From Labia minor (taxonomy: Eukaryota; Arthropoda; Insecta; Dermaptera; Spongiphoridae): a stretch of DNA of 64,000 nucleotides. A model generated the notes under the pieces. It saw only the letters and a list, made by a program, of their open reading frames with translations, did not search any database and had not been told where the DNA came from. Below, one piece after another: positions 5,486 to 32,900 of the stretch (position 1 is its first letter; each line of letters opens with the position of its first letter). Location: contig OY720346.1 in assembly GCA_963082975.1 (NCBI GenBank), positions 41,877,787-41,941,786 of the forward strand, read 5' to 3'. The translations under genes and the position numbers were made by a program.

Positions 5486-6670
5486 CGACGGACGATAGTA
5501 AGGGAGGTATTGTTTTCACATCAAATTTCACATGTGGAGATTTTTACATATCTCCACGAATCATGTATTTTCTTAACAGAAAAAAGTTGACCTGTGGCCA
5601 GGTCCGAACCGACCGACGGTTTGAAATAAATTAATTTCCAGCTACAGAAACAATTTCAAATAATTTTAATATATCTATTAATGTAATGAAAAACATGGAT
5701 ATAACATAAATATTTTTTATTTTATTTTATTTATAATATATATGTAATACCAGGCTGTGACGTCATGAATGGCTGGATGACGTCATATAATTTTAAATTA
5801 AGAAAAAACTAATAAAGATGATTTTTCTCGAGGATAAAACCAATACAAAGTGCATGATGATTCGTGGTGATAAGTAAAAAAATCTCATGTGAAATTTGGT
5901 GTGAAAATCCTTCCCTTCCTATCGTCGATCGCTAATACTACCACTTCCGGTTTCCGGATTTGCACCAAAAGTTGATCAATTCATCCCACTGATGCATTAA
6001 GTAAATATACCAAATTTCATCAAAATCGGTTGAGCCGTTCAGGCTGTACACATCTATACGGACGGACAGACGGACGGACGGACAGACATCATGCTAAAAA
6101 TACTTTTTTCTGTTAAGAAAATGCATGATTCGTGGAGATATGTAAAAATCTCCACATGTGAAATTTGGTGTGAAAACAATACCTCCCTTACTATCGTCGG
6201 TCGGTAAAAAGTATTTTTAGCATGATGCCTGTCCGTCCGTATAGATGTGTACAGCCTGAACGGCTCAACGGATTTTGATGAAATTTGGTATATTTACTTA
6301 ATGCATCAGTGGGATGAATTGATCAACTTTTGGTGCAAATCCGGAAACCAGAAGTGGTAATATTAGCGATCGACGATAGGAAGGGAAGGGTTATTTTCAC
6401 ACCAAATTTCACATGAGGAGATTTTTTTACATATCTCCACGAATCATGCACTTTGAATTGGCTTTTTCCTCGAGAAAAATCATCTTCATTATTTTTTTCT
6501 TAATTTAAAATTAGATGACGTCACCCAGTCCTTCATGACGTCACGGCCACAGCGCCTCCTTATATCTTATCTTATTAGATAATAGATACATTAAAATTAT
6601 TTGAAATTGTTTCTGTAGCTGGAAATTAATTTATTATTAACCGTCGGTCGGACCTGGCCACAGGTCAACT
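5486..6670. mobile_element. Helentron-like (HINE) element interrupted by a reverse copy of itself
   Basis: A plus copy starts at ACCGACGGACGATAG (about 5488), breaks at about 5580 inside its CTTAACAGAAAAAA motif, and resumes at about 6205 with AAAGTATTTTTAGC, running to the 3' hairpin near 6640-6665. The break is filled by a complete minus-oriented copy of the same family (about 5581-6204: hairpin GACCTG-GCCA-CAGGTC end first, TCGTCGGTCGGTA end last). Both copies carry the GTCC/GGAC microsatellite, paired TGACGTCA motifs and the GATGCATTAAGTAAATATAC block. A short non-autonomous element with a GTCY microsatellite, subterminal inverted CGGTCGGT repeats, a 3' hairpin and insertion in T-runs fits Helentron-associated interspersed elements (DINE-like). 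Confidence 0.75.
5758..5785. promoter_or_regulatory. paired CRE-like TGACGTCA sites inside HINE copy
   Basis: Two palindromic TGACGTCA octamers (5758-5765, 5778-5785) lie exactly 20 bp apart start to start. The same pair with the same spacing recurs at 6516/6536 and 20889/20909. The octamer is the full consensus site for CREB/ATF bZIP factors. Function here is unknown. Confidence 0.5.
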
Positions 6671-7640: not shown

Positions 7641-7649
7641 AAATTTATA

Positions 7650-9320
7650 TTATTTACATAATTTCGTTGTTTGATCACATGTTGTCCCAGATGGGCAATT
7701 ACTGCATGCTGCTCCTACTTTATACATTGAAGTCCCTATAACGTTACCTCCGGGTCCATAATTACATACATACATTTTATCAAACCAAGACTGAACCTAT
7801 AATAATTAAAAGTAATTTTAATAAATTGATTTGAATCGGTTTATTCATATTCTTACAAATTAAGAAAAAGAAAATTTAATTATTTTGTAATTGGAAAATT
7901 TGAAATTAAAAGGTAAAAAAAATTAATTGTAGATTCTACTTACGTTATTGGTATGAATATATCCACAACCAATTTGATAAGTATCTGCCCAAGCCATTTC
8001 AGTATAATGACCATAATTACTTTCAAACCTATTGATAAATAATTGATTAATTTATACCTATATTTTCAAGTAATGTATTTTTGAAAAAGATAATGCTCTT
8101 TACTTGTACGGGTCGATGTTATTTTTTGAAAAATTTACAACTTCGTCCCACCATGAGGTTGCAGCCCCTTTAAAATCAGGATCATTGCCTCGGTTATTTG
8201 AAGAAGAAAACATGTACACATTTTGACCAATCCATCCATCTGATTGAGATAAAAATTAGTTTAGTTTTTTAAAAATTATTAATGAAGTATGAATGGTGAA
8301 ATTTATATTCATTTATTTTATATTTTTAATTTAATTATTTTTTAATATTTAAATAATGTTGACAGTTTTGAAATTTCTCAATACATTTTAACAGAAATAG
8401 CAGTACTCTTATATCGATATTATTTACATTAATGAATATATATATAATATATAGAAAAGAGAACACCAGTGTTGCTCAGTGTCTTTCTAAACAACATTAA
8501 TATGTTTATCAAAATTAAAGAAATTAATTTTTAATATCATAAAAACAAACTTGTCATTCATTTAAAGTTAAATTGGTATTAAAAATTAAAATCATTAATT
8601 TTGATTGACATATTAATGATGTTTAGAAAGTCGTTTAGCAAGACTGGTGTTCTCTTTTATTCGTCACTATACCTGTATTTCGGCAAGAATCATGTCCAAA
8701 TACACATTGGTCCGCCCATCTTTGTGCAATTGTAGCTAATTCAGCATTCCATTCCTAAAAACAACCAATTAATTTCATCAGAAAATAAAATTAATAAAAT
8801 AAAAAACTATAAAACGAATAAAATTATTATTTTTAGAATAGTAAGAATTTTATTATATTATAACCATTTGACGCATATTTTGAGCACTAGGTTGACCACC
8901 ACCGACACCCCGAGTTTCTTTTCCTTGAGCCAATTTGGACCGTAGATCATTGTGGGCATCTAAAATGACTTGAATATCATTTTCAGAAACACCTCTATAT
9001 AAAATTTGATTACATTGTCCAAGACTATTAACCTATAAATATAAATAAATTAATATTTATTAATTTATAGTCCAATTTAAAATGAATACAATAGAAATTT
9101 GTGTTACTTACTCCTGGATAAATGCACATGGTATGATCTGAACATACACTACAATAATCCCGGCAATCAATTATTGTTGGTAAAATAATTAGCATCAATG
9201 CATATAAAATCTTAATCTGAAATAAATTCAATATAAAAATTATCATACTTTACTAATACAATAACAATAACTACTCATTAAAAGAAAATCCGATAATTGT
9301 ACTTATACATGTATGTTTAT

Positions 9321-9391
<71 letters not shown>

Positions 9392-12300
9392 TATTTTTTA
9401 ATTTACTTTGGGAATTTTTATTGAAAATTTCTTGCGTTTAAATTGTTTTTTTTTTTAATATAAAAATAAATATATACCAGTAATAAAGAAAATATTGCTT
9501 TATAATTTCCATGTTTCTTAATCTATAAAAGTAAACTGAAATATTAGTTTATTTTGTAATATAGTGGAGATATATTGTCTTGGTGTGATGGAGATGTATT
9601 ATATTTGATATATTGAAAATATATTATCTTAGTGTAATGGAAATATATTATTATGTTATCTTTAGAATGTGTGGGAATAGATTATATAAAATACATTATG
9701 TCATAAATTAAGAATGGGTTAGTATAAGAAGAAGGAAGTTGAGTTTGCATTTCATAAGCCGTGGGAAAAATATAATCGTTGTCCACTGATCAAAGGTGAT
9801 CGTTATGTAAGAAAAGAAAGATTACTAATGGGTGCAACGGAGACAGAGGATGAGAGAAGGAGATGGCGAAAGGGGAAGGAGGGGAGGCTCAAGGTGAGAT
9901 GAACCAAAAGCGGCAGAGAGTGTGGCAGGCAGGGAAGAATGTACACGAGAGAATAAGTGATTGAATTATCGATAATTATAAGATGTGTGTGTTAATTTTG
10001 ATCTGTTTAGTGAATCTGTGCTCCTGGCCAGGAAAGTGTGAGTAAAGCAAATTTAATTATATCAAATGCATTTGAATAAATTCGTATGAAATTGATTAAA
10101 TAAATGAATTAATTTGGATAAGATATATTAAATAAGTTAATGTAAAATTGATTGAATAAATAAAGTAAATAATATGAATTATAATTAACCGAATTAATAT
10201 AAAATTAATTAAATAAGCAAGTTGAATTAAATGAGTTATAATTAAAAGAATTAATGTAAAATTGATTGAATAATTAAATTAAATAATATAAATTATAATT
10301 AACTGGATTAATATAAATTTAATAATTGTAACTAAATGAAATAAATTATATTTGAATTAAATTAAATGATGTTTTTAATAAACAATTAACACATTCGTCG
10401 TATATAGGTGGCATGATCTCGTACCTTCTTTCTAGCATTGGTGCAAGTAAGTACGCGGCCCATTACAACTGGTGTCAGGTGTGGGGTTGAGGGTTTAGGG
10501 GTAGAGAGTAAAATAATTAAGCAAAATTTTGAGGATTGCATCGATAAAATTTAATTAAAATGGGAATATTTTGTTAATAGTTTAATTCCTTTCAAACCAA
10601 AGATAAAGTAAAATTCTGAGAGCAGGGATACGGAAATTTGGGAGTATTTAAGTGAGGGAGAGTACGATAAAATTAAACCCTAGACCTGGTGTTTGCTCAA
10701 CATCGAAGTTGAAAGCACCCCCACGAAACATGGAGGAACAGATCCATAATTTGGAACAACAATTAGGACAATTGCAGGCCCAGTTATCAAATCTGACTGG
10801 GGCGGCTGGTCCCGTGGAGGTACGCGTCAATCGAGACCCTAATTGGGGAATAGTGGAGGGGATGTCGCCCTGGACGGGGACAGGACAGATAGACCTATTC
10901 CTCAATAAATTTGAGCAATTGGCCAAAATGGGTAACATACCCGAGGACCAGAGGAGGGAGGTCTTGGAATGGAAGCTGGAGGGAACGGCGTTGAGAGTCG
11001 TCAGAAATTTACCAGGAGATATCACTTGGGAAGGGGTGAAGGAACAACTGAGAGCGAGGTTCAAGCCGGAAGACACGGCCACCCAAAGGATGAGAATGGT
11101 CCTGACTATGGGTCAAACTCCGCAAGAGAGTGCAGCGGATTATCTGGATCGATTACGAGATGCAATGGCCGGAATAGATTGGGCGGGTACAGGAATTACC
11201 CTATTGGCTCGGTTTCTAGAAGGGCTCAGAGGCGAACCGGGTAGACAAGCCCGAGTAGCAGCCCCCACGACCGAGGAAGGAGCCTTACAGATTGCACAAC
11301 GGTGGGAAAAAGAGGGAAGGAATGTCCCGGAAACCCGCTTTACCTACCCATGGAGACGTAGAGACAACACACGGTTCACGAGTAACCCTGCGATTAGGGG
11401 CAGGTGTTACAATTGTAATCGGGAGGGACACATGGCTCGGATGTGCCCCATAAAGAGGGAACCGAATAGTACCATTGGGGGTACAGAGAAAAGAGGGAAC
11501 ATCAAACCCCGTGAAGGATGCTATAGGTGCGGGAGTAGGGAGCACTTTATAAGGCAGTGTCCCCGACCTCCCCAGGTAAAGTGTGTGGCCGAAGAAAACA
11601 TCCATACACAAGTGGCCCCAAAAGAGTTCGGACTCCCTCCGCCCCAAGAGTGAGTCCGAAGAGATTCGGATCTCTCCTGGTAACCGCAATCAACACCAAT
11701 GCGGATAAGGCTACTAGAGTGAGACTGAGTATAGGGGGACGGGAATTGGAGATGCTAGTGGACACGGGGTCGGAAGTGTCGATCTTAAAAGCTCCTATTC
11801 CAGATATCCCTGTAATGGGATATCCGCGAAATGCGTGTGGAGTTACGGGAGATCTGTTGCCCATTAGTGGTCAACAAACGCTTCCGATACTGGTGACGAA
11901 GAGAAGAATCATGCATCCATTCATTATTTGCGATGTACGGATAGCGGGAGATGGGCTCCTGGGAATGGATGTGTTGACCGCTTTGGGAGCGGTGATTGAT
12001 GTGCAGAAAAGGGAGTGCCGTTGGAACGGCACAGCACGAGGTAACGGGAAGGGGAAAAGGGGCGTTGGGAATGGGAGTAATTTGGAGATTATTCCCCTGG
12101 AACGACCTAGAGGAGTAGTCAGCACTGAAACTGATGACACGGAATTTGGAGCCATTAGTGGCATTCCGCCTGTCACCGGGATAGATGAAGTGCAAGAGGA
12201 GGTCGTGAGAGCGCGAGTAATTGGCACTAGAAAAGATGACACGGAATTTGAAGCCATTAGTGGCATTCCGCCTGTCACCGGGGTAGAAGGATTGCCAGAG

Positions 12301-15300
12301 GAGGTCGTGAGAGCAAAACAGAGGAAAGTAATTCCGGCGTGGTCCGAGGTAGTGGTCTGGGCTGAGGTAGATAATGCACAAGATGGCTCAGAAATGGTAG
12401 TGGAACCGGTTATATTGGCGCAACCAGTGTTACGGGTAGGGCGGACTTGTGTGAGAGTCGAGAAAGGAAGTGTACCGGTCAGAGTAATAAACTTATCTAG
12501 TAGGAAGGCAGTGATAGATCGTCGCCAACAACTTGCCAAAGCCAGCACGATACCAATATTAGACCAAAGTTGTATTTGCCGAGTGCAGGTGGTTGAACAA
12601 GAGACCAAACACCAATGGGTATCTAAGTTCAAGGAAAAGTTGACCCACCTGCCTGAAAATCACCAACATCAGATGTTCGAGCTATTGAACGAATATGCTT
12701 CATTGATGTATGAAGAGGGAACAACGGGATTGGGTTGTGCACTAGGTGTGAAGCATAAAATTGTCACTGAAGGATCAGCTCCCATCTTTAAACGACCCTA
12801 TAGAGTGCCGCATGCGATGAGACCCGAAGTAGAAAAACAGATCGGGAAGATGCTAGAAGAAGGAGTGATTGTAGAATCAGATTCGCCATGGTCAGCACCC
12901 GTAGTACTAGTACCCAAAAAGAGTACAGACGGGAGGGTTAAATATCGATTTTGTACTGACTACCGAGCTCTGAACAGTGTAACGAAGATTCCGGTGTATC
13001 CGATACCTAATATCACGGAGACGCTAGAATCCTTAGGAAATGCACAATATTTCACTACCCTAGACCTGGCAAGTGGGTACCACCAAATTCAGGTAGCTCC
13101 AGAAGATAGAGAGAAAACCGCATTCACTACTTTTATGGGGCATTTTGAGTACGCAAGAATGCCGTTCGGTTTAGCCGGGGCTCCAGCTACTTTCCAACGC
13201 TTGATGGATCGGGTGTTGGCTGGAATTAAGGGAAGCGAATGTTTCGTATATCTAGATGATGTGGTAGTATTTGGTACAACATTTTCGGAACATCAAAGAA
13301 GGTTGCGAAACGTATTCGAATGCCTCCGACAGGCAAGACTGCAAATACAACTAGAGAAATGTCATTTCGCGGTGGGAGAAGTTGGGTACCTGGGGCATCG
13401 GGTGGGGAAAGATGGAGTTCGACCCGATCCAAAAACAGTGGAAGCGATTAATAACTACCCACAACCGAAAAACGTAAAAGAGATACAACAGTTTCTGGGA
13501 CTCTCAGGGTGGTACAGGAGGTTTATCCCTGAGTATGCTAATATTGCGAAGCCATTGACGGTCCTCACAAAGAAAGACCAGAAGTTCCAATGGGGTAAGG
13601 ACCAGGAACAAGCGTTTCTTTCTCTCACAAAATTCCTGTGTAGTGACACCGTACTCGTTTATCCAGATTTCACACTACCGTTTATCTTGGCCACAGACGC
13701 CTCGAACGAGGCTTTAGGCGCAGTGTTATCACAGCGTCGAGACGGATATGAAAGGCCGATTGCGTACGCCAGTCGAACGTTGAACAAGGCCGAAAGTAAC
13801 TACACAGTAACGGAGAAAGAACTACTTGCTGTAGTGTGGGCGACGCAACAATTTCGGTGTTACCTATATGGGAGGAAATTCCAACTGATAACTGACCACG
13901 CGGCCTTGAAATGGATGTTAAGTCTGCATGATCCGTCACAGCGGTTGACACGATGGGCGCTACGACTGGCGGAATATGACTATACAGTAGAACATCGACC
14001 GGGGAAGTTACATCGGAATGCGGATGCTCTCAGCAGGGTGAAAGTTAGTGAGGAAGGCCCTGAGTCGAAGGTGCATACGATTCGAACTTTATTGAGAACC
14101 ACAGCGACCGAAAAAGAATGGCGCGAATCACAAGATCAAGATGAGGACTGTCAGCGGTGGGCACGGAGCGGCAAAGCCCAAGCAAGATCCGATGGGTGTT
14201 TGTACGTAGTAGATGATCACCAAACCCGTCTAATGGTACCCCGAGAAAAGGTGCCCATGATATTGGAAGAGAATCATGATAGACCCACAGCGGGGCATAG
14301 AGGGGTACAGGGAACCTTATCACGAATCCAGCGACAATATTTTTGGGAGGGAATGGAACGGGACGTAGAGTCCTGGGTGAAACAGTGTAGTATATGTACC
14401 CAGATGAAGTCGCCAACTGGACTTCGAGCTCCCGTTCAACCACATGAGATCCCCAGAAGGCCCTTCCAAATGATAGCACTAGATGTCGTGGAATTCCCGA
14501 AGTCCACCCGAGGTAATAGATACCTTTTGACGGTACTAGATCACTACTCCCGGTACTTGGAAGCGATACCCATACCAAACCAAACAGCGGCCAGAGTGAT
14601 CCGTGCGCTCACGGAAGAAGTAATAAGCCGGCATGGGATCCCAGAAATCATCTTAACCGATCAAGGAAGAAATTTCACCTCTAAACTATTCCTGGGACTA
14701 TGTCAACGTTTAGGAATAAAAAAGGTACAAACAACAGCCTATCATCCAGAATCGAACGGACGAGTGGAAAGGGTACACAAAACAATAAAGGAGATGCTTC
14801 GACCGTGGGTGAGAACAGACGGTAAAGACTGGGATGTTTGGTTGCCATACGCGTTAATGGCTTATCGGAGCGGACCCCATTCCAGCACTGGGTTTTCGCC
14901 GAATGTGTTAGCATTCGGCCGGGAAACAGACATTAATATCACCGTAAAAAATCAACATCATCAAGAAGAGCCAGATAGATGGGCATATCTAAACGACTTG
15001 TGTGACCGGATAGAACATCTACAACAACGGTCGATAAATCAGTCGGAAGCCAGGTTACAGGCGAGCAGGAAACAGGCTAATAAACATCGAAAATTCCGAA
15101 GGTTCGAGGTAGGGGATGAAGTATATGTATACAACCCCGTTCTGAAAGAGTCAGAAGCTCGGAAATTTTATAAGCCTTGGAAGGGCCCCTACACAATAGC
15201 GACAAAAAATTCCGAAGTGGTATATGGAGTGTGGTGGAGCCCCACTAAGATTGTCAACATACATGTGAATCGTTTAAAACCAGCCAATATAGAACGCCGC

Positions 15301-18300
15301 GGAGTGAACCGTGTATATGAACACACGGGAGATATGTTGATGGCACCCAAAAATTACGCCCTAGCTCATTGCGTATCGGCCGACTTACGCATGTCCCAAG
15401 GTGTTGCAAAAACTATACGAGACACCTATCCGAGGCACCCTTGCGAAAAGATCCCAGAACCAACCATCGGAGAGATCCTAGTACAATACCACCCAGATAG
15501 AGTAATACTTCACTGTGTCACGAAAACAAAAGCGAGTGACAAGCCGCGCCCTGAAAACGTGAAAATGACAATCAAGAACCTTCTACTGAAGGCGACCGAG
15601 GTAGGAATCCCAGCATTGGCGGTTCCGCGCTTAGGATGCGGAATGGACGGCCTCAAATGGGTACAAGTCAAGAAGTGGCTAAAAGAGCTAACCCCCGACT
15701 ACCCGGTGAGAGTACACGTATACACACCAGCGGCCATTGGAACCCCAACGCCAACTGATGATGAAGAGGAGAAAAACCGAATTTGGGAGAGCGATTCGGA
15801 TGACGATGTGTGGTCAGGGGAAGAGGACATTTCATTGAGCCCGTGGCGAGAACAGAATGACTCCCAGCCCAATTGGAATGGAGTAGGACAACTAGATTAT
15901 TCCGCAAGACCCAGCGAGATAGAGGAGATCGAGCCAGAAGGGGAGAAAGAAACACCCCCTGTAATTAATTTAGAAAGCCAAGATGAAATAGACATCGCAG
16001 AGGCACTAAGGGAAGAGGAATCCCTCAGAATTGACAGAAGAGATCCAGAGTCTGGGCGACAGGAGACAGAGACCGGTGAGCACGTTACTCAAGGGGAAAC
16101 AGGACAAACTTCGCAGGATGAAGAAAGTCAAAGGGAGGAGGGGTGGGAGGATATAGATTCCCCGGCTAGCCCGGAGAAATCACCCAATGCTCGGGACCAG
16201 AATGCACACCCTCCTCACACACCACCCAATAGAGATGTCCCGGTTAGGGGTAGCGTGGAGGCCCAACCCAGTACCAGTAGCCCGGGGACAAGACCTCCCA
16301 CAACAGCCGGGGCGACAAAGAACCCTAATACGAGTAAACCACCCGTTGGAGTCCCACCAAAAAAGAGAGGGGTAGGGCGTCCTAAAAAGAGAACCATTTG
16401 GAATTTCCATAAAAAAAAGGAGTAATGTTTCTTTGTTTCTTCTCTCACAGGCCAAACTAACGATGCGATGGGGAAGCAGGCGAGGGAGAGGGAGGAGATA
16501 ATGCCACTGGGAGTCTATTTTGAACCAGTCGACGATGTGATAATTACGGGAGATGAGTGGCGGATTGTAACGGAAGTCGACGTGAAAGAGATTCAAGGGA
16601 AGGTATCGGTCATCAGGGATTCTCTGGAGAAATTACAGGATGACCGATACGCTCTCTTGGAAGGAGAACCTTTGAAGACAATAGATTTTAAGGAGGATAT
16701 GTCCTATATTAAGACCAGTTTCGAGATGACGGAGGGGATTATTTCACATTTGAGTGAAATGCTACCCCCGGCGCGAAGTCGACGTGGTCTGGTGGACGCG
16801 GGGGGGCACGTTTTAAAATTCATTTTCGGAACTTTAGATAATGAAGATCTGGTGGAATTGAATACCAGATTACAAAATTTAAATGAAGTTAATGAACAAA
16901 TGAGTCATTACTTCGATGATCAAATTACAGCATTAGACCAACTCGACCATAAAACTAATCAAAATTTCGACTTGATTAAACAACATGCTAGAACATTATT
17001 GGAATTAGCCACTTTGATAGACCAAAATTTTAATTCGACACTTGGACGGCAAAACGCAGCCGAAAAATTTTTTCAAGAAGCGTTAGAATTAATGACTAAG
17101 ACACGACGCCTGGGGCAAGCAGTGACGTCAGTTCGAAACTGGTTAGAGGATATCCTCGGGATTGTTCAATCGGCGGCAGCGGGACGCCTCGATGCGCGAT
17201 TGATCAACCCAAAAATGTTATTAGAATTAATGATAGATATAAATAAGAAACTCCCCGAAGGACAAGAATGGCTGACCCCGCTAGAATTACGATTTATTTA
17301 TAAGTACTATGACACCTCATTAGTGAAAGTGTATAGTGTCAGGGACGCTATCCGTTTCGTGATCTCCCTTCCGTTGAAGACAGTATCCCAGTCAGGAACA
17401 ATATATTTCGTTCATGTGGTGCCTACAGCTCGGGGGGGAGTGAGGACCAAGTTAGTGAAAATTTCCCCGTGGATCCTAGTAACGCATGACCACCAAAAAT
17501 ATACCACGCTAGAACATAGATATGTGGACAACTGCCGAGGACGGGAGCCTATGGTGTGTCAACAGCCTATTCCACTCGTAGCCCGATCCCAACTCAGTTG
17601 TGTCAGCGCCCTCTTCTTCAAACAGGCGGAGCATCTAGACAGTTACTGCTCATGGGAAGTGTTATTAGGGGCGGTTACTGATTTTTGGGAACCATCATAT
17701 TCTGGTTCCCATTGGTATTATAGTATATCACGACCTCAAGTGGCCCGGCAAAGTTGCCGTACCAATAGCAAACCTAGATTCGATGATATCCAACTACATC
17801 AACAAGGCATCGTTACCGTTCCGGAGGGATGTCAGCTATATACAAATCAACATCTGTTGATGTCTAGGAGCGCGGGTCAATCGAGAGTCACGATAACAAC
17901 TCCAGTGATATTTACCGGCCATAAAGAAGAACCCCTAATAACAGAGACATCACGTAAGGAGAACACAATAATGGCGGAGGGACTGAAAAGCTTGGAGTCG
18001 ATAAGAGCTGAGTTGGGAAGGACCTCGATGAGTGTTCCATTATCCAGGTTGCGGGAGGAGGCGAGGTTGATACAGAGCAAAAGGAAACAGCATCTTATCG
18101 CTGGCGGGACCGGTGGTGGAGCAGTTTTAGTGAGTCTGTGTGGACTGGTGGGGTATCTTTGGTGGAAGAAGTGTACACGGAGGAAGAGGAAGGCCGGGAA
18201 ACTGCAGAATCAACTGGGAAGTGATGTGGACATAGACAAAACAGAGGAGGGGTCGAACTGTTGAAAAGGATTGTTTCGGGAAAAAACTTTACCCCGAAAC

Positions 18301-19963
18301 AATCTTTTTTAAAGGGTGGGGGAGTGTAATATAGTGGAGATATATTGTCTTGGTGTGATGGAGATGTATTATATTTGATATATTGAAAATATATTATCTT
18401 AGTGTAATGGAAATATATTATTATGTTATCTTTAGAATGTGTGGGAATAGATTATATAAAATACATTATGTCATAAATTAAGAATGGGTTAGTATAAGAA
18501 GAAGGAAGTTGAGTTTGCATTTCATAAGCCGTGGGAAAAATATAATCGTTGTCCACTGATCAAAGGTGATCGTTATGTAAGAAAAGAAAGATTACTAATG
18601 GGTGCAACGGAGACAGAGGATGAGAGAAGGAGATGGCGAAAGGGGAAGGAGGGGAGGCTCAAGGTGAGATGAACCAAAAGCGGCAGAGAGTGTGGCAGGC
18701 AGGGAAGAATGTACACGAGAGAATAAGTGATTGAATTATCGATAATTATAAGATGTGTGTGTTAATTTTGATCTGTTTAGTGAATCTGTGCTCCTGGCCA
18801 GGAAAGTGTGAGTAAAGCAAATTTAATTATATCAAATGCATTTGAATAAATTCGTATGAAATTGATTAAATAAATGAATTAATTTGGATAAGATATATTA
18901 AATAAGTTAATGTAAAATTGATTGAATAAATAAAGTAAATAATATGAATTATAATTAACCGAATTAATATAAAATTAATTAAATAAGCAAGTTGAATTAA
19001 ATGAGTTATAATTAAAAGAATTAATGTAAAATTGATTGAATAATTAAATTAAATAATATAAATTATAATTAACTGGATTAATATAAATTTAATAATTGTA
19101 ACTAAATGAAATAAATTATATTTGAATTAAATTAAATGATGTTTTTAATAAACAATTAACACATTCGTCGTATATAGGTGGCATGATCTCGTACCTTCTT
19201 TCTAGCATTGGTGCAAGTAAGTACGCGGCCCATTACAATTTTATTCCAATTATATAAATTATCCATATTCATAAAAATCTGTGTGAATCAAAAATAATCA
19301 GGAGCTTTTGTTTCAAGCTTTTTTGGTACAACTTTGTTTCCAAGTTTCAATGTTGTTTAATCAATATCTTCGAACTCTTCATTGATGAGTATGTGTGTTT
19401 GAAGTCGTGTTTTATCACGAAGTTGAAATTTTTGATCAAAAATTAGTTTCACTTCCATTTGTTTTATCCAATAACTGATCATTATTTATATGCACCATTT
19501 CTTGTCATATGCACTGTTCTCTTTCTTTTTATCTCCTTAATTAATAATTATCATTTATTTATATGATGGAATTATATCAAATCATACTTGCATGGCATTT
19601 TCAGAAAATCATTACCTTCAAAGATGAAAACGTTTTGAGTACATTTGACTAGTCAGTCGTATCTCTTTTTATGATGAAGACATTAAAAACTTAAGTTAAG
19701 TTAAATTCATAAACCAATGTGGAGAAAAAATAGAAAAAAAAATTTAAAAAAAAATTTCCGAATCAAAATAAATTTTTATTCAAAACTGTAAGATATTTTT
19801 CTAATAAATCATCTTAAATATACAAATTATATCAAGAAATTAAAATATTTTTAAATAAATAGCTATTTATTTAATTCCACATCAAAATTTTTTTAGTTCA
19901 ATATTATACATACACATGTCAAAGGTTTTAATTATTTATACTCACCACAGTATTGTCCATCAT
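7650..19963 (-). CDS. CAP gene A: venom allergen 5-like secreted protein, split by a provirus in intron 1
   Basis: Exons (minus strand): 19963-19946, 9216-9112, 9032-8865, 8754-8673, 8239-8104, 8028-7944, 7796-7650. They total 741 nt, 246 residues. All introns are GT-AG and phases chain without a stop. Exon 1 is a microexon (MMDNTV). Exon 2 supplies a hydrophobic signal ([15 protein letters not shown]) and the Cys-rich start DYCxVCxDHTMC of antigen-5 proteins. Exons 3-7 form the CAP domain with AHNDLR (His about 68), GHYTEMAW (His about 177), CNYGPGGN (about 209) and a C-terminal Cys-rich tail ([10 protein letters not shown]). These match the two CAP signature blocks, and the length is typical for antigen 5. 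Secretion, probably in venom or saliva, is inferred from family. Unlike genes B-F, exon 2 starts ATT rather than ATG, so translation needs exon 1, which now lies beyond the 9.7-kb retroelement (intron 1 about 10.7 kb). An in-frame ATG at 9246-9244, upstream of the acceptor, could serve a shorter transcript. Assignment of exon 1 rests on paralogy of flanking intron sequence with gene B. Confidence 0.85.
8455..8658. repeat. 204-bp palindromic (hairpin) element in intron 4 of CAP gene A
   Basis: The left end AAAAGAGAACACCAGTGTTGCT is mirrored by AGCAAGACTGGTGTTCTCTTTT at the right end. The arms stay about 80% complementary for roughly 80 bases (e.g. CTTTCTAAACA / TGTTTAGAAAG). The other CAP genes lack it at this place. 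It looks like a foldback MITE. No target duplication is certain. Confidence 0.7.
9323..9387. repeat. (TA)n microsatellite in intron 1 of CAP gene A
   Basis: About 65 bp of pure AT alternation, just upstream (minus strand) of exon 2. Shorter TA runs sit at the equivalent place in gene B (about 27032-27061) and gene C (about 31343-31366), so the repeat predates the duplications and has expanded in A. Confidence 0.9.
9555..10467 (+). repeat. 5' LTR
   Basis: TG...CA ends with a 6-bp terminal inverted repeat (TGTAAT/ATTACA). A TATA-like TATATAAAATAC lies near 9682-9693. An AATAAA polyadenylation signal lies at about 10378-10383, so R would be unusually long (roughly 9715-10400) and U5 short. The first half is GC-balanced around 9820-9950, the second half very AT-rich. 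Within it, 9983-10045 is a short hydrophobic ORF ending at a splice donor (see separate entry). TATA and R limits are inferred, not mapped. Confidence 0.93.
9983..10045 (+). CDS. LTR-encoded short ORF, candidate signal-peptide exon for Env, with splice donor
   Basis: An ATG in the LTR opens a 20-codon ORF whose product is almost purely hydrophobic (Val, Leu, Ile and Cys core of about 10 residues) and then turns polar with Pro-Gly-Lys, the make-up of a signal peptide. The ORF overlaps a strong 5' splice site, AAGT|GTGAGT, with the exon ending at 10037 in phase 1. The acceptor before env (AG at 16449-16450) supplies the two bases that complete the codon and continue directly in the env frame, whose own N-terminus lacks a signal. 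Spliced env mRNAs are known for gypsy-type elements. That the LTR exon supplies the signal is my inference from phase and composition. Confidence 0.65.
   Translation: MCVLILICLVNLCSWPGKCE
10470..10487 (+). promoter_or_regulatory. primer binding site, tRNA-Leu-like
   Basis: TGGTGTCAGGTGTGG starts 2 nt after the 5' LTR. It is complementary to a tRNA 3' end of the form ...CCUGACACCA, which resembles insect tRNA-Leu acceptor stems. The tRNA identity is from memory and should be checked against the host tRNA set. Confidence 0.7.
10730..11653 (+). CDS. gag: Gag polyprotein (capsid/nucleocapsid)
   Basis: Length 307 residues from ATG 10730 (context GAAACATGG). The frame is open from 10652, but only non-ATG codons precede it. 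It forms the capsid and packages RNA. The N-terminus is a short coiled coil (about residues 3-22, [12 protein letters not shown]). Residues about 35-190 are a Ty3/gypsy retrotransposon gag domain with the W-x-G...FLNKFEQLA and YLDRLRD patterns. Two CCHC zinc knuckles follow: [14 protein letters not shown] (from residue about 226) and [14 protein letters not shown] (from about 264). The last 30 codons overlap the pol frame, and a -1 slip site lies at 11617-11623 before the TGA at 11651. Classical Drosophila errantivirus Gags usually lack zinc knuckles, so this Gag is closer to other Ty3/gypsy lineages. Confidence 0.93.
   Translation: MEEQIHNLEQQLGQLQAQLSNLTGAAGPVEVRVNRDPNWGIVEGMSPWTGTGQIDLFLNKFEQLAKMGNIPEDQRREVLEWKLEGTALRVVRNLPGDITWEGVKEQLRARFKPEDTATQRMRMVLTMGQTPQESAADYLDRLRDAMAGIDWAGTGITLLARFLEGLRGEPGRQARVAAPTTEEGALQIAQRWEKEGRNVPETRFTYPWRRRDNTRFTSNPAIRGRCYNCNREGHMARMCPIKREPNSTIGGTEKRGNIKPREGCYRCGSREHFIRQCPRPPQVKCVAEENIHTQVAPKEFGLPPPQE
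11557..16425 (+). CDS. pol: Pol polyprotein: protease, RT, RNase H, integrase, plus macro domain
   Basis: The frame is open from 11557, with no early ATG. It is entered by -1 frameshift, so translation in this frame starts at about 11623. Residue numbers count from 11557. Protease: [11 protein letters not shown] (catalytic Asp 69, nt 11761) and LLGMD. RT: about 420-640, catalytic YLDD at 13249-13260 (565-568). RNase H: Asp 714 (TDAS), Glu 753, Asp 780 (TDHAALKW). Integrase: HHCC zinc module from His 907 to CSIC, then Asp 976, Asp 1035 and Glu 1071 with exactly 35 residues between the last two (DD35E), and a GPY/F module (KGPY, about 1210). Beyond the usual Pol end it has a macro domain (about 1259-1391), an acidic Ser/Glu-rich stretch (about 1395-1540) and a Pro-rich, basic end with GRPKKR. 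Between protease and RT a 34-residue block is duplicated. Stop TAA at 16423, in the same frame as env downstream. All catalytic residues are present. Confidence 0.95.
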   Translation: MSPTSPGKVCGRRKHPYTSGPKRVRTPSAPRVSPKRFGSLLVTAINTNADKATRVRLSIGGRELEMLVDTGSEVSILKAPIPDIPVMGYPRNACGVTGDLLPISGQQTLPILVTKRRIMHPFIICDVRIAGDGLLGMDVLTALGAVIDVQKRECRWNGTARGNGKGKRGVGNGSNLEIIPLERPRGVVSTETDDTEFGAISGIPPVTGIDEVQEEVVRARVIGTRKDDTEFEAISGIPPVTGVEGLPEEVVRAKQRKVIPAWSEVVVWAEVDNAQDGSEMVVEPVILAQPVLRVGRTCVRVEKGSVPVRVINLSSRKAVIDRRQQLAKASTIPILDQSCICRVQVVEQETKHQWVSKFKEKLTHLPENHQHQMFELLNEYASLMYEEGTTGLGCALGVKHKIVTEGSAPIFKRPYRVPHAMRPEVEKQIGKMLEEGVIVESDSPWSAPVVLVPKKSTDGRVKYRFCTDYRALNSVTKIPVYPIPNITETLESLGNAQYFTTLDLASGYHQIQVAPEDREKTAFTTFMGHFEYARMPFGLAGAPATFQRLMDRVLAGIKGSECFVYLDDVVVFGTTFSEHQRRLRNVFECLRQARLQIQLEKCHFAVGEVGYLGHRVGKDGVRPDPKTVEAINNYPQPKNVKEIQQFLGLSGWYRRFIPEYANIAKPLTVLTKKDQKFQWGKDQEQAFLSLTKFLCSDTVLVYPDFTLPFILATDASNEALGAVLSQRRDGYERPIAYASRTLNKAESNYTVTEKELLAVVWATQQFRCYLYGRKFQLITDHAALKWMLSLHDPSQRLTRWALRLAEYDYTVEHRPGKLHRNADALSRVKVSEEGPESKVHTIRTLLRTTATEKEWRESQDQDEDCQRWARSGKAQARSDGCLYVVDDHQTRLMVPREKVPMILEENHDRPTAGHRGVQGTLSRIQRQYFWEGMERDVESWVKQCSICTQMKSPTGLRAPVQPHEIPRRPFQMIALDVVEFPKSTRGNRYLLTVLDHYSRYLEAIPIPNQTAARVIRALTEEVISRHGIPEIILTDQGRNFTSKLFLGLCQRLGIKKVQTTAYHPESNGRVERVHKTIKEMLRPWVRTDGKDWDVWLPYALMAYRSGPHSSTGFSPNVLAFGRETDINITVKNQHHQEEPDRWAYLNDLCDRIEHLQQRSINQSEARLQASRKQANKHRKFRRFEVGDEVYVYNPVLKESEARKFYKPWKGPYTIATKNSEVVYGVWWSPTKIVNIHVNRLKPANIERRGVNRVYEHTGDMLMAPKNYALAHCVSADLRMSQGVAKTIRDTYPRHPCEKIPEPTIGEILVQYHPDRVILHCVTKTKASDKPRPENVKMTIKNLLLKATEVGIPALAVPRLGCGMDGLKWVQVKKWLKELTPDYPVRVHVYTPAAIGTPTPTDDEEEKNRIWESDSDDDVWSGEEDISLSPWREQNDSQPNWNGVGQLDYSARPSEIEEIEPEGEKETPPVINLESQDEIDIAEALREEESLRIDRRDPESGRQETETGEHVTQGETGQTSQDEESQREEGWEDIDSPASPEKSPNARDQNAHPPHTPPNRDVPVRGSVEAQPSTSSPGTRPPTTAGATKNPNTSKPPVGVPPKKRGVGRPKKRTIWNFHKKKE
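11617..11660 (+). promoter_or_regulatory. programmed -1 frameshift signal (slippery heptamer plus stem)
   Basis: The heptamer C CCA AAA (11617-11623) is in the right phase of gag for tandem -1 slippage (X XXY YYZ). Three nucleotides later TTCGGACTC (11627-11635) pairs perfectly with GAGTCCGAA (11652-11660), a 9-bp stem with a 16-nt loop that contains the gag stop region. Pol is in the -1 frame relative to gag, as this predicts. The 3-nt spacer is shorter than the usual 5-9 nt, so a pseudoknot or a partly melted stem is possible. Confidence 0.75.
12133..12336 (+). repeat. 102-bp in-frame tandem duplication in the protease-RT linker
   Basis: Units start at GATGACACGGAATTTG (12133 and 12235). 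About 80 of the first bases match nearly perfectly, including ATTAGTGGCATTCCGCC and GAGGAGGTCGTGAGAGC. It encodes two copies of [16 protein letters not shown]...EEVVRA. The frame is kept, so the linker tolerates length change. Confidence 0.9.
15337..15735 (+). other. macro domain (TARG1/OARD1 type) within Pol
   Basis: Residues about 1261-1393 of Pol. Matches by eye to the TARG1/OARD1 subfamily of macro domains (ADP-ribosyl-protein hydrolases): [17 protein letters not shown] (N-terminal ADP-ribose loop), GEILVQ, a strand ending [10 protein letters not shown] followed by EN, then [13 protein letters not shown] and a final VRVHVY strand. Known biochemistry of TARG1 assigns catalysis to a Lys and an Asp 41 residues apart. 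The equivalent residues here, Lys 1323 (nt 15523) and Asp 1364 (nt 15646), are also 41 apart. This suggests an active ADP-ribose hydrolase that could reverse host (PARP-type) ADP-ribosylation of element proteins. The catalytic assignment is from family knowledge, the role is inference. Confidence 0.85.
16436..16450 (+). promoter_or_regulatory. 3' splice acceptor for spliced env mRNA
   Basis: A pyrimidine-rich TTTCTTCTCTCACAG lies between the pol stop (16425) and the env ATG (16468). It is the only such strong acceptor near the env start. Phase fits the LTR donor at 10037/10038. Confidence 0.75.
16468..18264 (+). CDS. env: Env, F-type fusion glycoprotein
   Basis: 598 residues from ATG 16468. 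The exon probably starts at 16451 and the true N-terminus is likely supplied by splicing. It would mediate membrane fusion for infectious transfer of the element. Seen: an early GVYFEP...EWRI block typical of the mature N-terminus of errantivirus Env and baculovirus F proteins, a furin-type site RSRR at residues 103-106 (cleavage after nt 16785), and immediately after it a Gly-rich hydrophobic fusion peptide (about 107-125). A long heptad-like helical region follows (about 120-250), then many Cys in 345-470. A single transmembrane segment lies near 543-566, followed by a basic 32-residue cytoplasmic tail. No signal peptide is present at this ATG, which would be fatal for an envelope unless supplied upstream. 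The frame is intact. It is in the same frame as pol but separated by the pol stop. Confidence 0.92.
   Translation: MGKQAREREEIMPLGVYFEPVDDVIITGDEWRIVTEVDVKEIQGKVSVIRDSLEKLQDDRYALLEGEPLKTIDFKEDMSYIKTSFEMTEGIISHLSEMLPPARSRRGLVDAGGHVLKFIFGTLDNEDLVELNTRLQNLNEVNEQMSHYFDDQITALDQLDHKTNQNFDLIKQHARTLLELATLIDQNFNSTLGRQNAAEKFFQEALELMTKTRRLGQAVTSVRNWLEDILGIVQSAAAGRLDARLINPKMLLELMIDINKKLPEGQEWLTPLELRFIYKYYDTSLVKVYSVRDAIRFVISLPLKTVSQSGTIYFVHVVPTARGGVRTKLVKISPWILVTHDHQKYTTLEHRYVDNCRGREPMVCQQPIPLVARSQLSCVSALFFKQAEHLDSYCSWEVLLGAVTDFWEPSYSGSHWYYSISRPQVARQSCRTNSKPRFDDIQLHQQGIVTVPEGCQLYTNQHLLMSRSAGQSRVTITTPVIFTGHKEEPLITETSRKENTIMAEGLKSLESIRAELGRTSMSVPLSRLREEARLIQSKRKQHLIAGGTGGGAVLVSLCGLVGYLWWKKCTRRKRKAGKLQNQLGSDVDIDKTEEGSNC
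18265..18324 (+). promoter_or_regulatory. hairpin and polypurine tract before the 3' LTR
   Basis: GATTGTTTCGGG (18269-18280) pairs perfectly with CCCGAAACAATC (18293-18304). Flanking A-run and T-run plus one G-T pair extend the stem to about 17 bp. The purine tract AAAGGGTGGGGGAG (18311-18324) directly abuts the LTR and would prime plus-strand DNA synthesis. Confidence 0.85.
18325..19237 (+). repeat. 3' LTR
   Basis: Same length as the 5' LTR (913 bp), and no difference seen when compared segment by segment. Ends GCGGCCCATTACA, followed by the target duplication ATTT. Confidence 0.93.
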
Positions 19964-20497
19964 GATTTTGTTTTAGGAAATAAATGTAAGTATCTTAGGC
20001 GAATCACTTTTTAAATGAATTTTTATCAAATACAAAAAATAAATAAATAATCGGAAATATATTATCATAGAAAAAAATTGTTGATATTTTTTATTAAATC
20101 TCAACAAGAATCTTTGATTAGGATCAATTTTATATTTGAAGATATTATCAACAAATATCTTTAAAATATATTTTTTTCGAAATTTTAAATTATTATAATT
20201 ATTATAATTTAGTAGATATTATCAAAAAATATATTTTAATCATTTATTAAAATTGTTTTCCTTATTTATTTAGCATAAAAAAATTATTTATGAGCAATTG
20301 AACTTCAAATGAAATCATTTTATAGATTAATTTGATAATAAAAATTAAAAATCAAGGGTAAATTTTTGCATATTTCAATTTATAATAAATATTTTTACTT
20401 AAAACAACTTCAAATATTTAAGTAAATTATATCCCATATAGTGAATTCATTTCTATGCAAACTTCTTTCAACCATAAACATAGATTTTTATATTTTT

Positions 20498-21090
20498 ACC
20501 GACCGACGATAGTAAGGGAGGTATTGTTTTCACACCAAATTTCACATGTGGAGATTTTTACATATCTCCACGAATCATGCATTTTCTTAACAGAAAAAGG
20601 TATTTTTAGCATGATGTCTGTCCGTCCGTCCGCCCGTCCGTCCTGAACGACTCAACGGATTTTGATGAAATTTGGTATGGGATGAATTGATCAACTTTTG
20701 GTGCAAATCCGGAAACCGGAAGTGGTAGTATTAGCGATCGACGATAGGAAGGGAAGGGTTATTTTCACACCAAATTTCACATGAGGAGATTTTTTTTTAC
20801 ATATCACCACGAACCATCATGCACTTTGTATTGGTTTTATCCTCGAGAAAAATCATCTTTATTAGTTTTTTCTTAATTTAAAATTATATGACGTCATCCA
20901 GCCATTCATGACGTCACAGCCTGGTATTACATATATATTATAAATAAAATAAAATAAAAAATATTTATGTTATATCCATGTTTTTCATTACATTAATAGA
21001 TATATTAAAATTATTTGAAATTGTTTCTGTAGCTGGAAATTAATTTATTTCAAACCGTCTGTCGGTTCGGACCTGGCCACAGGTCAACTT
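20498..21090 (+). mobile_element. Helentron-like (HINE) element, near full length
   Basis: Starts ACCGACCGACGATAG after a T-run. It contains the GTCCGTCCGTCC microsatellite (about 20620-20643) and a CRE pair (20889, 20909). It ends CCGTCTGTCGGT...GGACCTGGCCACAGGTCAACTT, with a GACCTG/CAGGTC hairpin. The 5' and 3' subterminal CGACCGAC / GTCGGT motifs are inverted. No coding capacity. Confidence 0.8.
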
Positions 21091-21799
21091 ATTTTATTTT
21101 ATCATTAATTTTAAATAATTTTAATTAGATTTGATAACTTTTGTTTCTTATTAGTAATCAAACAATTATATAACTACTACTTCATAAATCCATATATAGT
21201 AAATAAAAAGATAAAATATAAACTCCTACTTTAAAATATATACATATTTATCAATTCATCCATTTAATGGACATCATTTTACATTTTAAACTTTAATTAT
21301 AATTCAGATAAAGTTAATTTATTTATATTCAGAAATTATATGTGTATATATTTTTATAACCTTTATTATATTAAGCCTAATATGTTCTATACATTTATTT
21401 TTATACAATACATACATATAAATAATGTGGGAGAGTATATGGTATAAATATATTTAATATATATTTTTAATAATTTCTCTAGTTTCAATTTTTTTAAAAA
21501 ATAATGATTATATTTATTTTAAATATAATTTTCTGTGTCGCTACTTTCTTTGATACAACAACTCTCCAAATATCCCTATATCCATTCAATACCTATATTT
21601 GATAAAATTAGAAATATTTTTAATGCAGTTAGTTCTGCTTTATTTTTAAAATGAAACATAAATAGCGTGTCATTCCTCTTTGAAATCAATTTTTTAATAA
21701 CCAGGCCTGGCAACTAATCCTTCACATCAATATTTCCAAAACGAAAGTGAATGAATTATTTTTTTCCAGAAGTTTTTGAAATAGTACCATCACAAATTT

Positions 21800-25290: not shown

Positions 25291-25728
25291 GAGACATCCA
25301 TAAAACAAATAATACATATTAATAAACTAACAAATAATAATCTTTTACCAATTAATATTAACTGAATATTTAAATGAAAAGCCTTCCACTAATACAGCAT
25401 TTTGATGTGAGATTATCTTTCCCCCAATACCCTTCTTTTAACATGGATGTGACAGAAATTAAATCATCATACGACTTATAATGCAAAAATCACAACAATT
25501 TTATACTCGGAAAAAGAAAATATATATCAAAAAAAAATAAATTTTCTTATTAAAAAAATAATAATAATGTGTATTTTTAAAAAAGAAGAGGTTGTGGGGG
25601 GAAAAAGAGGATCATAATCATATTCTAGGATATTTTAAGAAAATTATTTACAACTAAAAATTATTAATTTTATTAGGCATCACAGATATACATTTCCTTT
25701 CAATGAACAGAAAAAACAGTTTTGTTAT

Positions 25729-27026
25729 TTATTCACACAATTTTGTTCCTTGGTTACATTTCGTTCCAGCTGGACAGGCGCTGCAAGGAGATCCTATTTT
25801 GTACATTGCCCTTCCTTTATAATTACCACTTGGTCCATAATTACATGCATAAGTTTTATCAAACCAATTATTCGCCTATAATAATTAAAAGAAATTTTAC
25901 AAACTGATTTATATCATTTTATTAATACTTCAAAGGTTAAATATTTAAAAATTGAAAATTTTAATTATGGATTCTACTTACGCTAATGGTATGAATATAT
26001 CCACAACCAATTTGATAAGTATCTGCCCAAGCCATTTGAGAATAATGGCCATATTTACTTTGAAACCTATTGATAAATAATTGATTTTTTTTTATACTTA
26101 AAATAATTTTTTATTGTTATATATATATGAGATAGATAATTTTCTTTACTTGAACGAGCCGATATTATTTTTGGAAAAATTTACAACTTCATTCCACCAT
26201 GAAGTTGAAGCACCTTTAAAATCAGGATCATTGCCTCGGTTATTTGAAGAAGAAAACTTGTGTACATTTTGACCAATCGATACATCTGATTGAGATAAAA
26301 ATTATTAAAGTTTTTTAATAAATTATATATGAATATATATGGTGAAATTTATATTCATTCACTTTATATTTTTAATTGAATTAATTTATAATATTTAAAT
26401 AAGAGATAATGTACCTGTATTTCTGCAAGAATCATGTCCAAATACACATTGGTCCGCCCATCTTTGTGCAATTGTAGCTAATTCAGCATTCCATTCCTAA
26501 AAACAATCAATTAATTTCATCAGAAAATAAAATTAATAAATTTAAAAATATAATATAATTTAAACTAAATATTAATAAAATTATTATTGTAAGGATAGTA
26601 AAAATTATATTGACCATTTTTCGCATATTTTGAGCACTAGGTTGACCACCACCGACACCCCGAGTTTCTTTTCCTTGAGCCAATTTGGATCGTAGATCAT
26701 TGTGGGCATCTAAAATGACCTGAATATCATTTTGATTAACTCCTCTATATAAAATTTTATTGCATCTACCGAGACTATTAACCTAATAAAATAAATAAAT
26801 AAATATTTTGTAAATATTAATTTATAATACATTTTAAATTTAATACAATTGAATTGAAATTTGTACTACTTACTCCTGGATATATGCACTTGGTATGATC
26901 TTTACATACACTACAATAATCCCGACAATCAATTAAAGTTGGTAAAATAATTAGTATGCATGCATATAAAATCTTCATCTGAAATAAATTCGATTTAAAT
27001 TATAATAATTTTTACTATAACAATTT

Positions 27027-29420: not shown

Positions 29421-29942
29421 GAAATGTTCTTGGCATTCATTATTCTTTACAATTTTCCAGCTATTCCTATCCTAAAAGCAAACCATCTCCATACATTTCC
29501 AATTCTCTCCCCAGCAATTTGATATCTACTTTTATATTTACTTAACGGACTTTTCAACATAAATTAATTTATTACTTATTTGAACTACGTGATCTATTCA
29601 TTTATAATTCTAATTATGAAATAATAAAATAAATAATAATTAAAAAATTAGACTTCTACAAATTGACTGATGATTTTTTCTAAATCATTAACTTGAAAAC
29701 AGATTTAAATTAGATATCCTTATCTTTTACCGATTTATATTAACTGAAAAATCTTACATATTATATTATTCAACAAATACAAAAAATTTATAATCTCAGG
29801 AGGATCATAATCATATTCTAGGATTATTTAAGAAAGATATTTAAATCTAAAAATTATAATCTTTTATTAGGCATCAAAGATATACATTCCCTTTCAATGC
29901 ACAGAAACACATTTGTTATTTGTTGTGATTTGGATTTCTGGT

Positions 29943-32900
29943 TTATTCACACAATTTTGTTCCTTGGTTGCATCTCGTTCCAGCTGGACAGGCGCTGCAT
30001 GGAGATCCTATTTTGTACATTGCCCTTCCTTTATAATTACCACTTGGTCCATAATTACATCCATAAGTTTTATCAAACCAATTATTCGCCTATAATAATT
30101 AAAAGAAAATTTATAAATTGATTTATATCAGTTTATTAATACTTCAAAGGTTAAATATTTAAAAATTGAAAATTTTAATTATGGATTCTACTTACGCTAA
30201 TGGTATGAATATATCCACAACCAATTTGATAAGTATCTGCCCAAGCCATTTGAGAATAGTGGCCATATTTACTTTGAAACCTATTGATAAATAATTGATT
30301 TTTTTTTATTTTATTTATACTAAATATAATTTTTTATTATTATAAATATATGAAATAGATAATTTTCTTTACGTGAACGGGTCTATATCATTTTTGGAAA
30401 AATTTACAACTTCATTCCACCATGAAGTTGAAGCCCCTTTAAAATCAGGATCATTGCCTCGGTTATTTGAAGAAGAAAACTTGTACATATTTTGGCCAAT
30501 CCATACATCTGATTGAGATAAAAATTATTAAAGTTTTTTAATAAATTATATATGAGTATGAATGGTGAAATTTATATTCATTCACTTTATATTTTTAATT
30601 GAATTAATTTTTAATATTTAAATAATATTGACACACACACACACACAGTTTCTAAATTTTTCAAAACAATAAATCTTAAATAAGAGATCTCTTACTTAAT
30701 ATCGATTTTTTTCCATTAATGAATAATGTACCTGTATTTCTGCAAGAATCATGTCCAAATACACATTGGTCCACCCATCTTTGTGCAATTGTAGCTAATT
30801 CAGCATTCCATTCCTAAAAACAACCAATTAATTTCATCAGAAAATAAAATTAATAAATTTAAAAATATAATATAATTTAAACTAAATATTAATAAAATTA
30901 TTATTGTAAGGATAGTAAAAATTATATTGACCATTTTTCGCATATTTTGAGCACTAGGTTGACAACCACCGACACCCCGAGTCTCTTTTCCTTGAGCCAA
31001 TTTGGACCGTAGATTATTGTGGGCATCTAAAATGACCTGAATATCATTTTGATTAACACCTCTATATAAAATTTTATTGCATTTTCCGAGACTATTAACC
31101 TAATAAAATAAATAAATAAATATTTTGTAAATATTAATTTATAATACATTTTAAATTAAATACAATTGAATAGAAATTTGTACTACTTACTCCTGGATAT
31201 ATGCACATGGTATGATCTTTACATACACTACAATAATCCCGGCAATCAATTAAAGTTGGTAAAATAATTAGGATGCATGCATATAAAATCTTCATCTGAA
31301 ATAAATTCCATTTTAATTATAAAACTTTACTATTACAATTACTATATATATATATATATATATATACTCTTTAAAAGAATATCTGATAATATTACTTAAA
31401 CATGTATGTAAGTATATATAAATTAAAATTTTGAAAGTATTTTTATCATCCTCGCACACATAAAAAGATAACCAATCATTTAGGCATTAGTCAGGAATTT
31501 CAGTTTTGATCAATTAATTTCTTCCAAATCTTCAATGAGTTTGTAACTAGAACTCTATGCCGGTTTACCCACTAGTAACACAAGAAGTTAAAATCTTTCC
31601 AAGTAAAAAATTATAATATTTTTTACATATCTTTTTCGAACGTATAGGACTAGGTCGTCCAGATTATGATTATAATTTATATATAAAAATTTACAAAATA
31701 TATTTTCATATAATTTATGAATATTATTTTTTTTGTTTAATCTATTTAAAAATAAAGAAAAATTTTCAAAATTCTTCTATTTTTATTTTTAAAAATTTCA
31801 AATACGTAGTAGGAAACAAAAATAATTGCATATACAATATCAGTGCCCCAAACGAACTTAATTTGCCACTACTTGAAGTCGTGTATTGTCATAAATTTTT
31901 TACCAATATGCACTTTATTTCATCTAATATCAGACATATATGTTATCTTCTTTTTTCATCTTCACAATTATAAAAGTTATGACTTAGTTAAGGAGAGCCA
32001 TTCACATTGATACCAAAGCGGAATATTCATGACCTTAAAGTCTTGCTGTGCATATGGTGGGATCAGCAAGGTGTTTTGTATTACTAGCTGATAAAACCCC
32101 GCTTGAAACTGTAACTGAAGATGTCTACCGTCAACTAAACAAATTGATGACGATCAGCATTAGTGAGTAACAGAGGCAAAAGTCATCCTATTGCAAGACA
32201 ACGCTCGGCGACATGTTGCAAGAGTTGTGAAGGATACTCTTGCAACTCGAATGGGATGTTTTACCGCACTCAAAGTACTCACCAGACATTTCGCCTTCAG
32301 ATTAACAATTGTTCATATCGATGCGGTCGGACTTGGCTTGCACACGGTTTCGATATTCTGAAGAAGTGCGAAAATGGATTGATGATTGGATCGCTGCCAA
32401 ACCAACATCGTTCTTTAGACACTTTATCGCCATGTTGCAAGAAAGATGGGTAAAAAGTTGAAGAAAGAAATAGAAAATATTTTGAATTTTACCAATTTTC
32501 TGAATAAATGCCAATTTAAAGTCAAACAATAATCACAATAAATGCAAGAACCTAATTAATAAAATTTCCGAATTATATTTTATTCGCATCTTATCTTATT
32601 ATGCTAGCTAAAATTGTATATATCTATCTTTCTATATATATTGGTTCTCAAAAACCGCTCTAACGATTTTTTTCAAATTTACACTAGATATAGTATTTAT
32701 AAAGAAAAATTAAGTTTTATTGATGATATCTCTTGAAACATTCAGCTTCATTATTAATTTCTTAATTGAAAATTATATATGGAAAACGTCAAAATTGGCC
32801 TCCATTTTTATTTGTATTAATATTTTTTTTTATTTAAAATATTTTAAAATTTATTATTTAATTTCGAAATAAAATTAAAAATATTTATTTTTAATAAAAT

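Follow-up and report, generated by a model that had tools for sequence, protein, structure and literature searches.

Within a 64-kb stretch of the earwig Labia minor (assembly GCA_963082975.1, contig OY720346.1, positions 41,877,787 to 41,941,786 of the forward strand; the whole stretch is termed the window, GC content 28.6%), a long terminal repeat (LTR) retroelement at 9555-19237 encodes a Pol protein to which a macro domain of the TARG1 branch is fused behind the integrase. Sequence comparison and a predicted fold support this assignment, and both catalytic residues of TARG1 have counterparts in the domain. The captured domain is most likely, by a modest balance of probability, an ADP-ribosyl hydrolase that would act with integrase on the integration complex, the cDNA or chromatin. 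Retention of a TARG1-type domain in Pol at two different positions points to ADP-ribosylation as something that retroelements must handle or use, and suggests that some of them counter or exploit this host mark.

The TARG1-Type Macro Domain of Pol

The initial annotation, made from the sequence alone, had Pol running without a stop into a TARG1-type segment at 15337..15735. The translation of the single 1622-aa frame is as described, and both Pfam and phmmer find the domain; its location stands and its start does not, since the TARG1 match found by phmmer begins earlier and spans 15301-15726. The profile and structure checks proposed at that stage likewise agree. Pfam Macro (PF01661) is matched at 29.5 bits (cut-off 22; E 7.7e-7), and a model of the domain (pLDDT 83.7, pTM 0.81) has a predicted macro fold that Foldseek matches to 4j5s (E 6.8e-14), with structure comparison favoring TARG1. 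Among PDB sequences searched with phmmer, the top five are TARG1/C6orf130 entries (E 2.9e-20 to 6e-20), followed by the DarG macrodomain (E 1.5e-6). By phmmer, profile search and structure alignment (VIA-align) the domain is nearer TARG1 than other macro classes; the trees described below are less clear. In TARG1, Lys84 is described as the nucleophile and Asp125 as the residue that resolves the lysyl-ADP-ribose intermediate (PMC6397177, PMC9967889). Their counterparts are Lys at Pol 1323 and Asp at Pol 1364, positions correctly given from the outset, with a spacing of 41 residues. This spacing and the E-value of 2.9e-20 rule out chance similarity to TARG1. The domain also matches the phage family phrog_335, annotated as phosphatase (E 6.6e-17). 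A profile scan of all stop-to-stop frames of at least 25 aa gave no other macro match at E 1 or better in the window.

Occurrence and Conservation in Related Elements

A search with the RNase H-integrase part of Pol found 5461 proteins among 7967 scored, and the best 120 of these 5461 are the basis of all counts of relatives. A blastp search of the macro domain against these 120 Pols (to which number the E-values refer) finds P0006 (47% identity, E 8e-44), P0007 (34%, 1.5e-23) and P0063 (32%, 2e-20), the next match being at E 0.17. With a profile that includes these three, P0061 also matches weakly (E 1.7e-4), giving three clear domains and one remnant. Searching with the macro region alone returned two proteins; a further macro-region search gave no match among 185 Pol-length candidates, with sensitivity limited by a word filter that missed even P0006, and scans of viral contigs with single proteins gave no relative. 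The initial annotation had raised the possibility that related intact Pols lack the Lys and Asp; all four clear cases (window, P0006, P0007 and P0063) keep both. The published TARG1 pattern, TKx(30,35)Px[IL]GxGxD in the form used here (from PMC6397177), is present in the window domain and P0006, as well as in P0004 and P0005, free TARG1-like proteins termed eukaryotic by likeness only.

Two architectures are found. In the window element, P0006 and P0007 the domain follows the integrase, and Pol is extended by a long tail whose basic C-terminus bears GRPxK and WNF. A scan of the 120 tails found WNF-like letters in P0006 and P0007 only; GRP motifs occur elsewhere as well. The GRPKK of the window Pol is what we take to be an AT-hook-like motif. 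A quick-method tree of the RNase H-integrase region with 119 rows (P0040 and P0064, 2 of the 120, were omitted because their matches span two copies) has the window Pol and P0006 as sisters (100), joined by P0007 at an insecure 94. The second architecture is that of P0063 from Leptinotarsa decemlineata, with the domain at residues 625-762, between RNase H (471-574) and the integrase zinc-binding domain (from 835). This record is named tropomodulin and joins a tropomodulin domain (43-185) to a gypsy Pol (254-1188), likely a merged annotation. P0061 is the sister of P0063, and its remnant occupies the same slot between RNase H and integrase.

When the window domain is compared with each of five relatives, the three ligand-binding loops show higher conservation than its remainder, for example 24/36 versus 42/105 residues with P0006 (p 0.005) and 23/36 versus 24/105 with P0007 (p 1.2e-5); the loops were marked by hand after the alignment was seen, so that the p values serve as a guide only. 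P0004 and P0005, the free proteins, give the same contrast. Loop conservation by itself cannot separate catalysis from binding; at the level of sequence, the retained Lys and Asp point to catalysis.

Number of Captures and Origin of the Domain

A single clade of the Pols of the window, P0006, P0007 and P0063 is rejected (approximately unbiased test, p 6.6e-6, quick tree). For the macro domains, 78 TARG1-like loci from viral contigs and 50 from bacterial genomes were fetched for comparison, and 125 of the 128 entered a 132-row tree, three being dropped as too short. In that tree the window and P0006 domains join one long-branched Bacteroidetes row (99/88). In a 32-row tree, built with 25 hand-picked rows of the 125 and without the long-branched row, one side of a branch (99/94) is made up of the domains of the four retroelements plus three TARG1 rows of eukaryotic type. 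On these 32 rows a single clade of the four domains is not rejected (p 0.44), and a grouping of the window, P0006 and P0007 is neither supported nor rejected (p 0.56). The P0063 domain is 44.5% identical to the free protein P0004 versus 29-31% to the other three Pol domains. The P0007 domain is about equally near P0004 (32.9%) and the window domain (32.5%), and its common origin with the latter therefore rests on position, tail and the insecure Pol-tree node. Taken together, the Pol and macro comparisons suggest two or more captures, or a single capture with later exchange among elements; by itself the macro tree does not decide. Capture from an animal (eukaryotic) TARG1 rather than from a phage or bacterial protein is favored, and the trees do not settle this.

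TARG1-like proteins are also carried by contigs listed as viral in IMG/VR. The 78 loci taken from there (L001-L078) lie on contigs ranging from 4 to 394 kb, and 70 of them fit a slightly relaxed TARG1 pattern.

Proposed Function and Alternatives

The initial annotation had suggested counter-defense or a role in integration for the domain. As an integration-linked hydrolase, the reading preferred here, it would travel with integrase inside the particle and strip mono- or terminal ADP-ribose from proteins of the element itself or from its cDNA. Alternatively, its substrates might be proteins of the chromatin at the target site, where integration nicks and gaps would activate PARP, and the basic AT-hook-like tail may keep the domain on DNA. 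TARG1 is reported to reverse thymidine-linked ADP-ribosylation of DNA (PMC8501950). Of eight mobile elements with a clear change in Drosophila lacking PARP-1, five are reported as increased (PMC7712786). A bolder extension, which we regard as doubtful, is that ADP-ribosylation forms a standing arthropod germ-line defense against reverse-transcribing elements, that gypsy-type elements captured TARG1 at least twice to erase ADP-ribose from the cDNA or integration complex, and that these would be the first such element-encoded ADP-ribosyl hydrolases.

Several points weigh against the hydrolase reading. Activity is predicted from sequence and a modeled fold, and the host genome is represented by one copy of the element. 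P0007 and P0063 fail the strict TARG1 pattern, the Pfam macro score of P0063 (20.8) lies slightly under the cut-off of 22, and the weak P0061 remnant aligns just around the Lys. No macro domain is found in 116 of the 120 Pols, some of which end early (5 residues past integrase in P0035, P0037, P0039 and P0046). The other three of the eight mobile elements changed in Drosophila without PARP-1 are decreased, ten further elements, nine of them of the gypsy superfamily, rose but failed correction, and an indirect effect is considered possible by the authors (PMC7712786).

The next reading in order of belief, though an unlikely one, makes the domain a reader that tethers integrase to PARylated or otherwise ADP-ribosylated chromatin, such as damage sites or active chromatin. 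Integration would be steered as by the chromovirus chromodomain, a captured Pol domain that reads histone marks and sits behind GPY/F. The macro domain does adjoin the integrase C-terminal module, and the basic AT-hook-like C-terminus of the window Pol, P0006 and P0007 fits a tether, as does the reported binding of TARG1 to poly(ADP-ribose) chains and RNA (PMC5928194); in rotifer elements no chromodomain is reported to have been found behind GPY/F (PMC5408684). Against a tether, the catalytic Lys and Asp, presumably dispensable for binding alone, are retained, and the beetle element carries its domain before the integrase. RNA-virus macro domains counter ADP-ribosylation, and a general cytoplasmic counter-defense of this kind, removing host-PARP ADP-ribose from gag, particle or stress-response proteins, appears less probable still. 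The model does match alphavirus macro domains and predicted structures from many viruses, including Kadipiro virus and insect negev-, flavi- and virga-like viruses; however, the domain is far nearer TARG1 than the alphavirus macro domains (12-16% identity), and it is fused to Pol, which in frameshift elements is usually made in small amounts.

That a host TARG1 gene was captured by chance and is of no use to the element seems improbable. The three clear cases and one remnant among the best 120 of 5461 Pols would fit such an event, and the P0061 remnant indicates that the domain can decay; yet three Pols that differ by up to half in RNase H-integrase share the placement, the frames are open, the ligand loops are better conserved and a second architecture exists. 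Least credible of all, to the point of being negligible, is an artefact in which a chimeric assembly or a faulty gene model has joined a host TARG1 gene to a retroelement. P0063, a predicted gene model that also contains tropomodulin, is alone doubtful as a single protein, but P0006 and P0007, from other sources, show the same domain order as the window Pol. We reject a chimera for the window element, in which the Pol frame runs uninterrupted, the LTRs are identical and a target duplication is present.

Structure of the Element and Its Surroundings

The two LTRs are identical across 913 bp, each with TG...CA ends, and ATTT flanks the element on either side, one extra identical base being taken as chance. 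The insertion is regarded as recent because of the identical LTRs, the intact ends and the ATTT duplication. These features, together with an envelope fusion protein, place the element among the env-bearing Ty3/gypsy elements. The description as an insect errantivirus is only partly supported: env is Baculo_F-like and the organisms named among the listed relatives are arthropods, and the genus label is tentative, the RNase H-integrase tree being made up of the window Pol and listed relatives. The Pol order protease-RT (reverse transcriptase)-RNase H-integrase is confirmed by Pfam piece by piece; the integrase core is split by the border of the scanned pieces, either half by itself scoring below the cut-off. 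The primer-binding site matches the 3' end of what is presumably tRNA-Leu. The coding parts have a GC content of 45-52% versus 26% in the flanks.

Features of the retroelement in the window
Feature	Position	Strand	Basis and remarks
5' LTR (TG...CA)	9555..10467	+	Identical to 3' LTR; target duplication ATTT at 9551-9554
Putative primer-binding site	10470..10480	+	Sequence read
gag (Retrotrans_gag, two zf-CCHC stretches)	10652..11653	+	Pfam
pol, one open frame, 1622 aa	11557..16425	+	Open reading frame (ORF); overlaps gag, -1 frame relative to gag; Pfam domains by piece
Aspartyl protease, retroviral type	11713..11997	+	Pfam RVP, 25.1 bits (cut-off 20.7)
RT end, RNase H, integrase zinc-binding domain, integrase core start	13051..14619 (Pol piece scanned)	+	Pfam
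Integrase C-terminal (p58_C) module, immediately 5' of macro domain	15184..15282	+	Pfam PF22938, 22.1-23.1 bits, below cut-off 27
TARG1-type macro domain	15301..15726	+	Pfam, phmmer, profile search, structure model and comparison
Counterpart of TARG1 Lys84, Pol 1323	15523..15525	+	Alignment; catalytic role as described in PMC6397177
Counterpart of TARG1 Asp125, Pol 1364	15646..15648	+	Alignment; catalytic role as described in PMC6397177
Acidic Ser/Pro-rich linker, probably disordered	15736..16359	+	Composition of translation, judged by eye
Basic C-terminus with GRPKK and WNF motif, common to P0006 and P0007	16360..16422	+	Translation, tail comparison
env, Baculovirus F-protein type fusion protein	16468..18264	+	Pfam PF12259 Baculo_F, E 1.2e-28
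Polypurine tract, contains one T	18311..18324	+	Sequence read
3' LTR	18325..19237	+	Identical to 5' LTR; target duplication ATTT at 19238-19241

Each LTR holds three repeat copies 57 bp apart (10127-10361 and 18897-19131), and pol contains an in-frame duplication behind the protease (12113-12212 / 12215-12314, 102-bp or 34-codon spacing, 87% identical). Inverted repeats at 5580-6392 and 20491-21094, 98-99% complementary and perhaps a small DNA transposon family, bracket the element. Elsewhere in the window, repeated blocks lie at about 7649-9262, 25721-27024, 29935-31341, 37009-38264 and 44810-45837, at least some of which carry CAP/antigen-5-like exons on the minus strand; the exon at 30803-31099 matches Ancylostoma secreted protein 1 (E 9.9e-8), Ves v 5 (1.3e-6) and venom allergen 3 (6e-4). 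An ORF on the plus strand (52409-52858) with a Mos1 transposase helix-turn-helix domain (32 bits, cut-off 24.1) is probably a mariner remnant. Scans of the 64 kb for tRNAs and Rfam families gave no match.

Comparison with Known Systems

We know of no earlier description of a macro domain in a reverse-transcribing element. Among the titles and abstract beginnings covered, in partial listings with most subscription papers and bioRxiv outside their reach, no report of a macro domain or TARG1 in a retroelement was found, and neither of two articles on insect endogenous retroviruses uses a word starting macro or ADP-ribos in its main text (PMC12992720, PMC13172572). With a small isolated domain, the question of whether protein, RNA or DNA is the substrate, or chromatin is read, becomes testable.

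The domain resembles TARG1 (terminal ADP-ribose protein glycohydrolase 1; OARD1, C6orf130) in predicted fold, the Lys84 and Asp125 counterparts, a His-Cys-x-Ser loop and the published sequence pattern. It differs in being part of a retroelement Pol with presumed activity, and structure alignments give 27-30% identity to human TARG1. The DarG macrodomain, the DarT antitoxin that removes ADP-ribose from DNA, is likewise placed in the TARG1-like branch (PMC9967889). The domain of Pol matches NCBIfam NF048014 (E 7e-11) and PADLOC DarG (E 8.5e-15). The NF048014 score of 41.9 bits is below the cut-off of 250, and DarG is a weaker match than TARG1 by sequence and structure. With alphavirus, rubella virus and other viral macro domains the shared feature is a macro fold in a virus protein; identity is low, and the named PDB cases are RNA viruses without an integrase. 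The best viral structure matches (BFVD) include Kadipiro virus VP8 and proteins of insect-associated negev-, flavi- and virga-like viruses.

The element itself has the LTRs, gag, RT-RNase H-integrase pol, Baculo_F env and 4-bp target duplication of env-bearing Ty3/gypsy elements (insect endogenous retroviruses, errantivirus-like), from which its Pol differs by the added enzyme-type domain and a 229-residue acidic tail with a basic end. Enzyme capture by LTR elements is already described (PMC5408684). Retroviruses and rotifer LTR elements have acquired a dUTPase in Pol; the captured domain described here would belong to ADP-ribose metabolism rather than to dUTP hydrolysis or, as with the chromodomain, the reading of histone marks.
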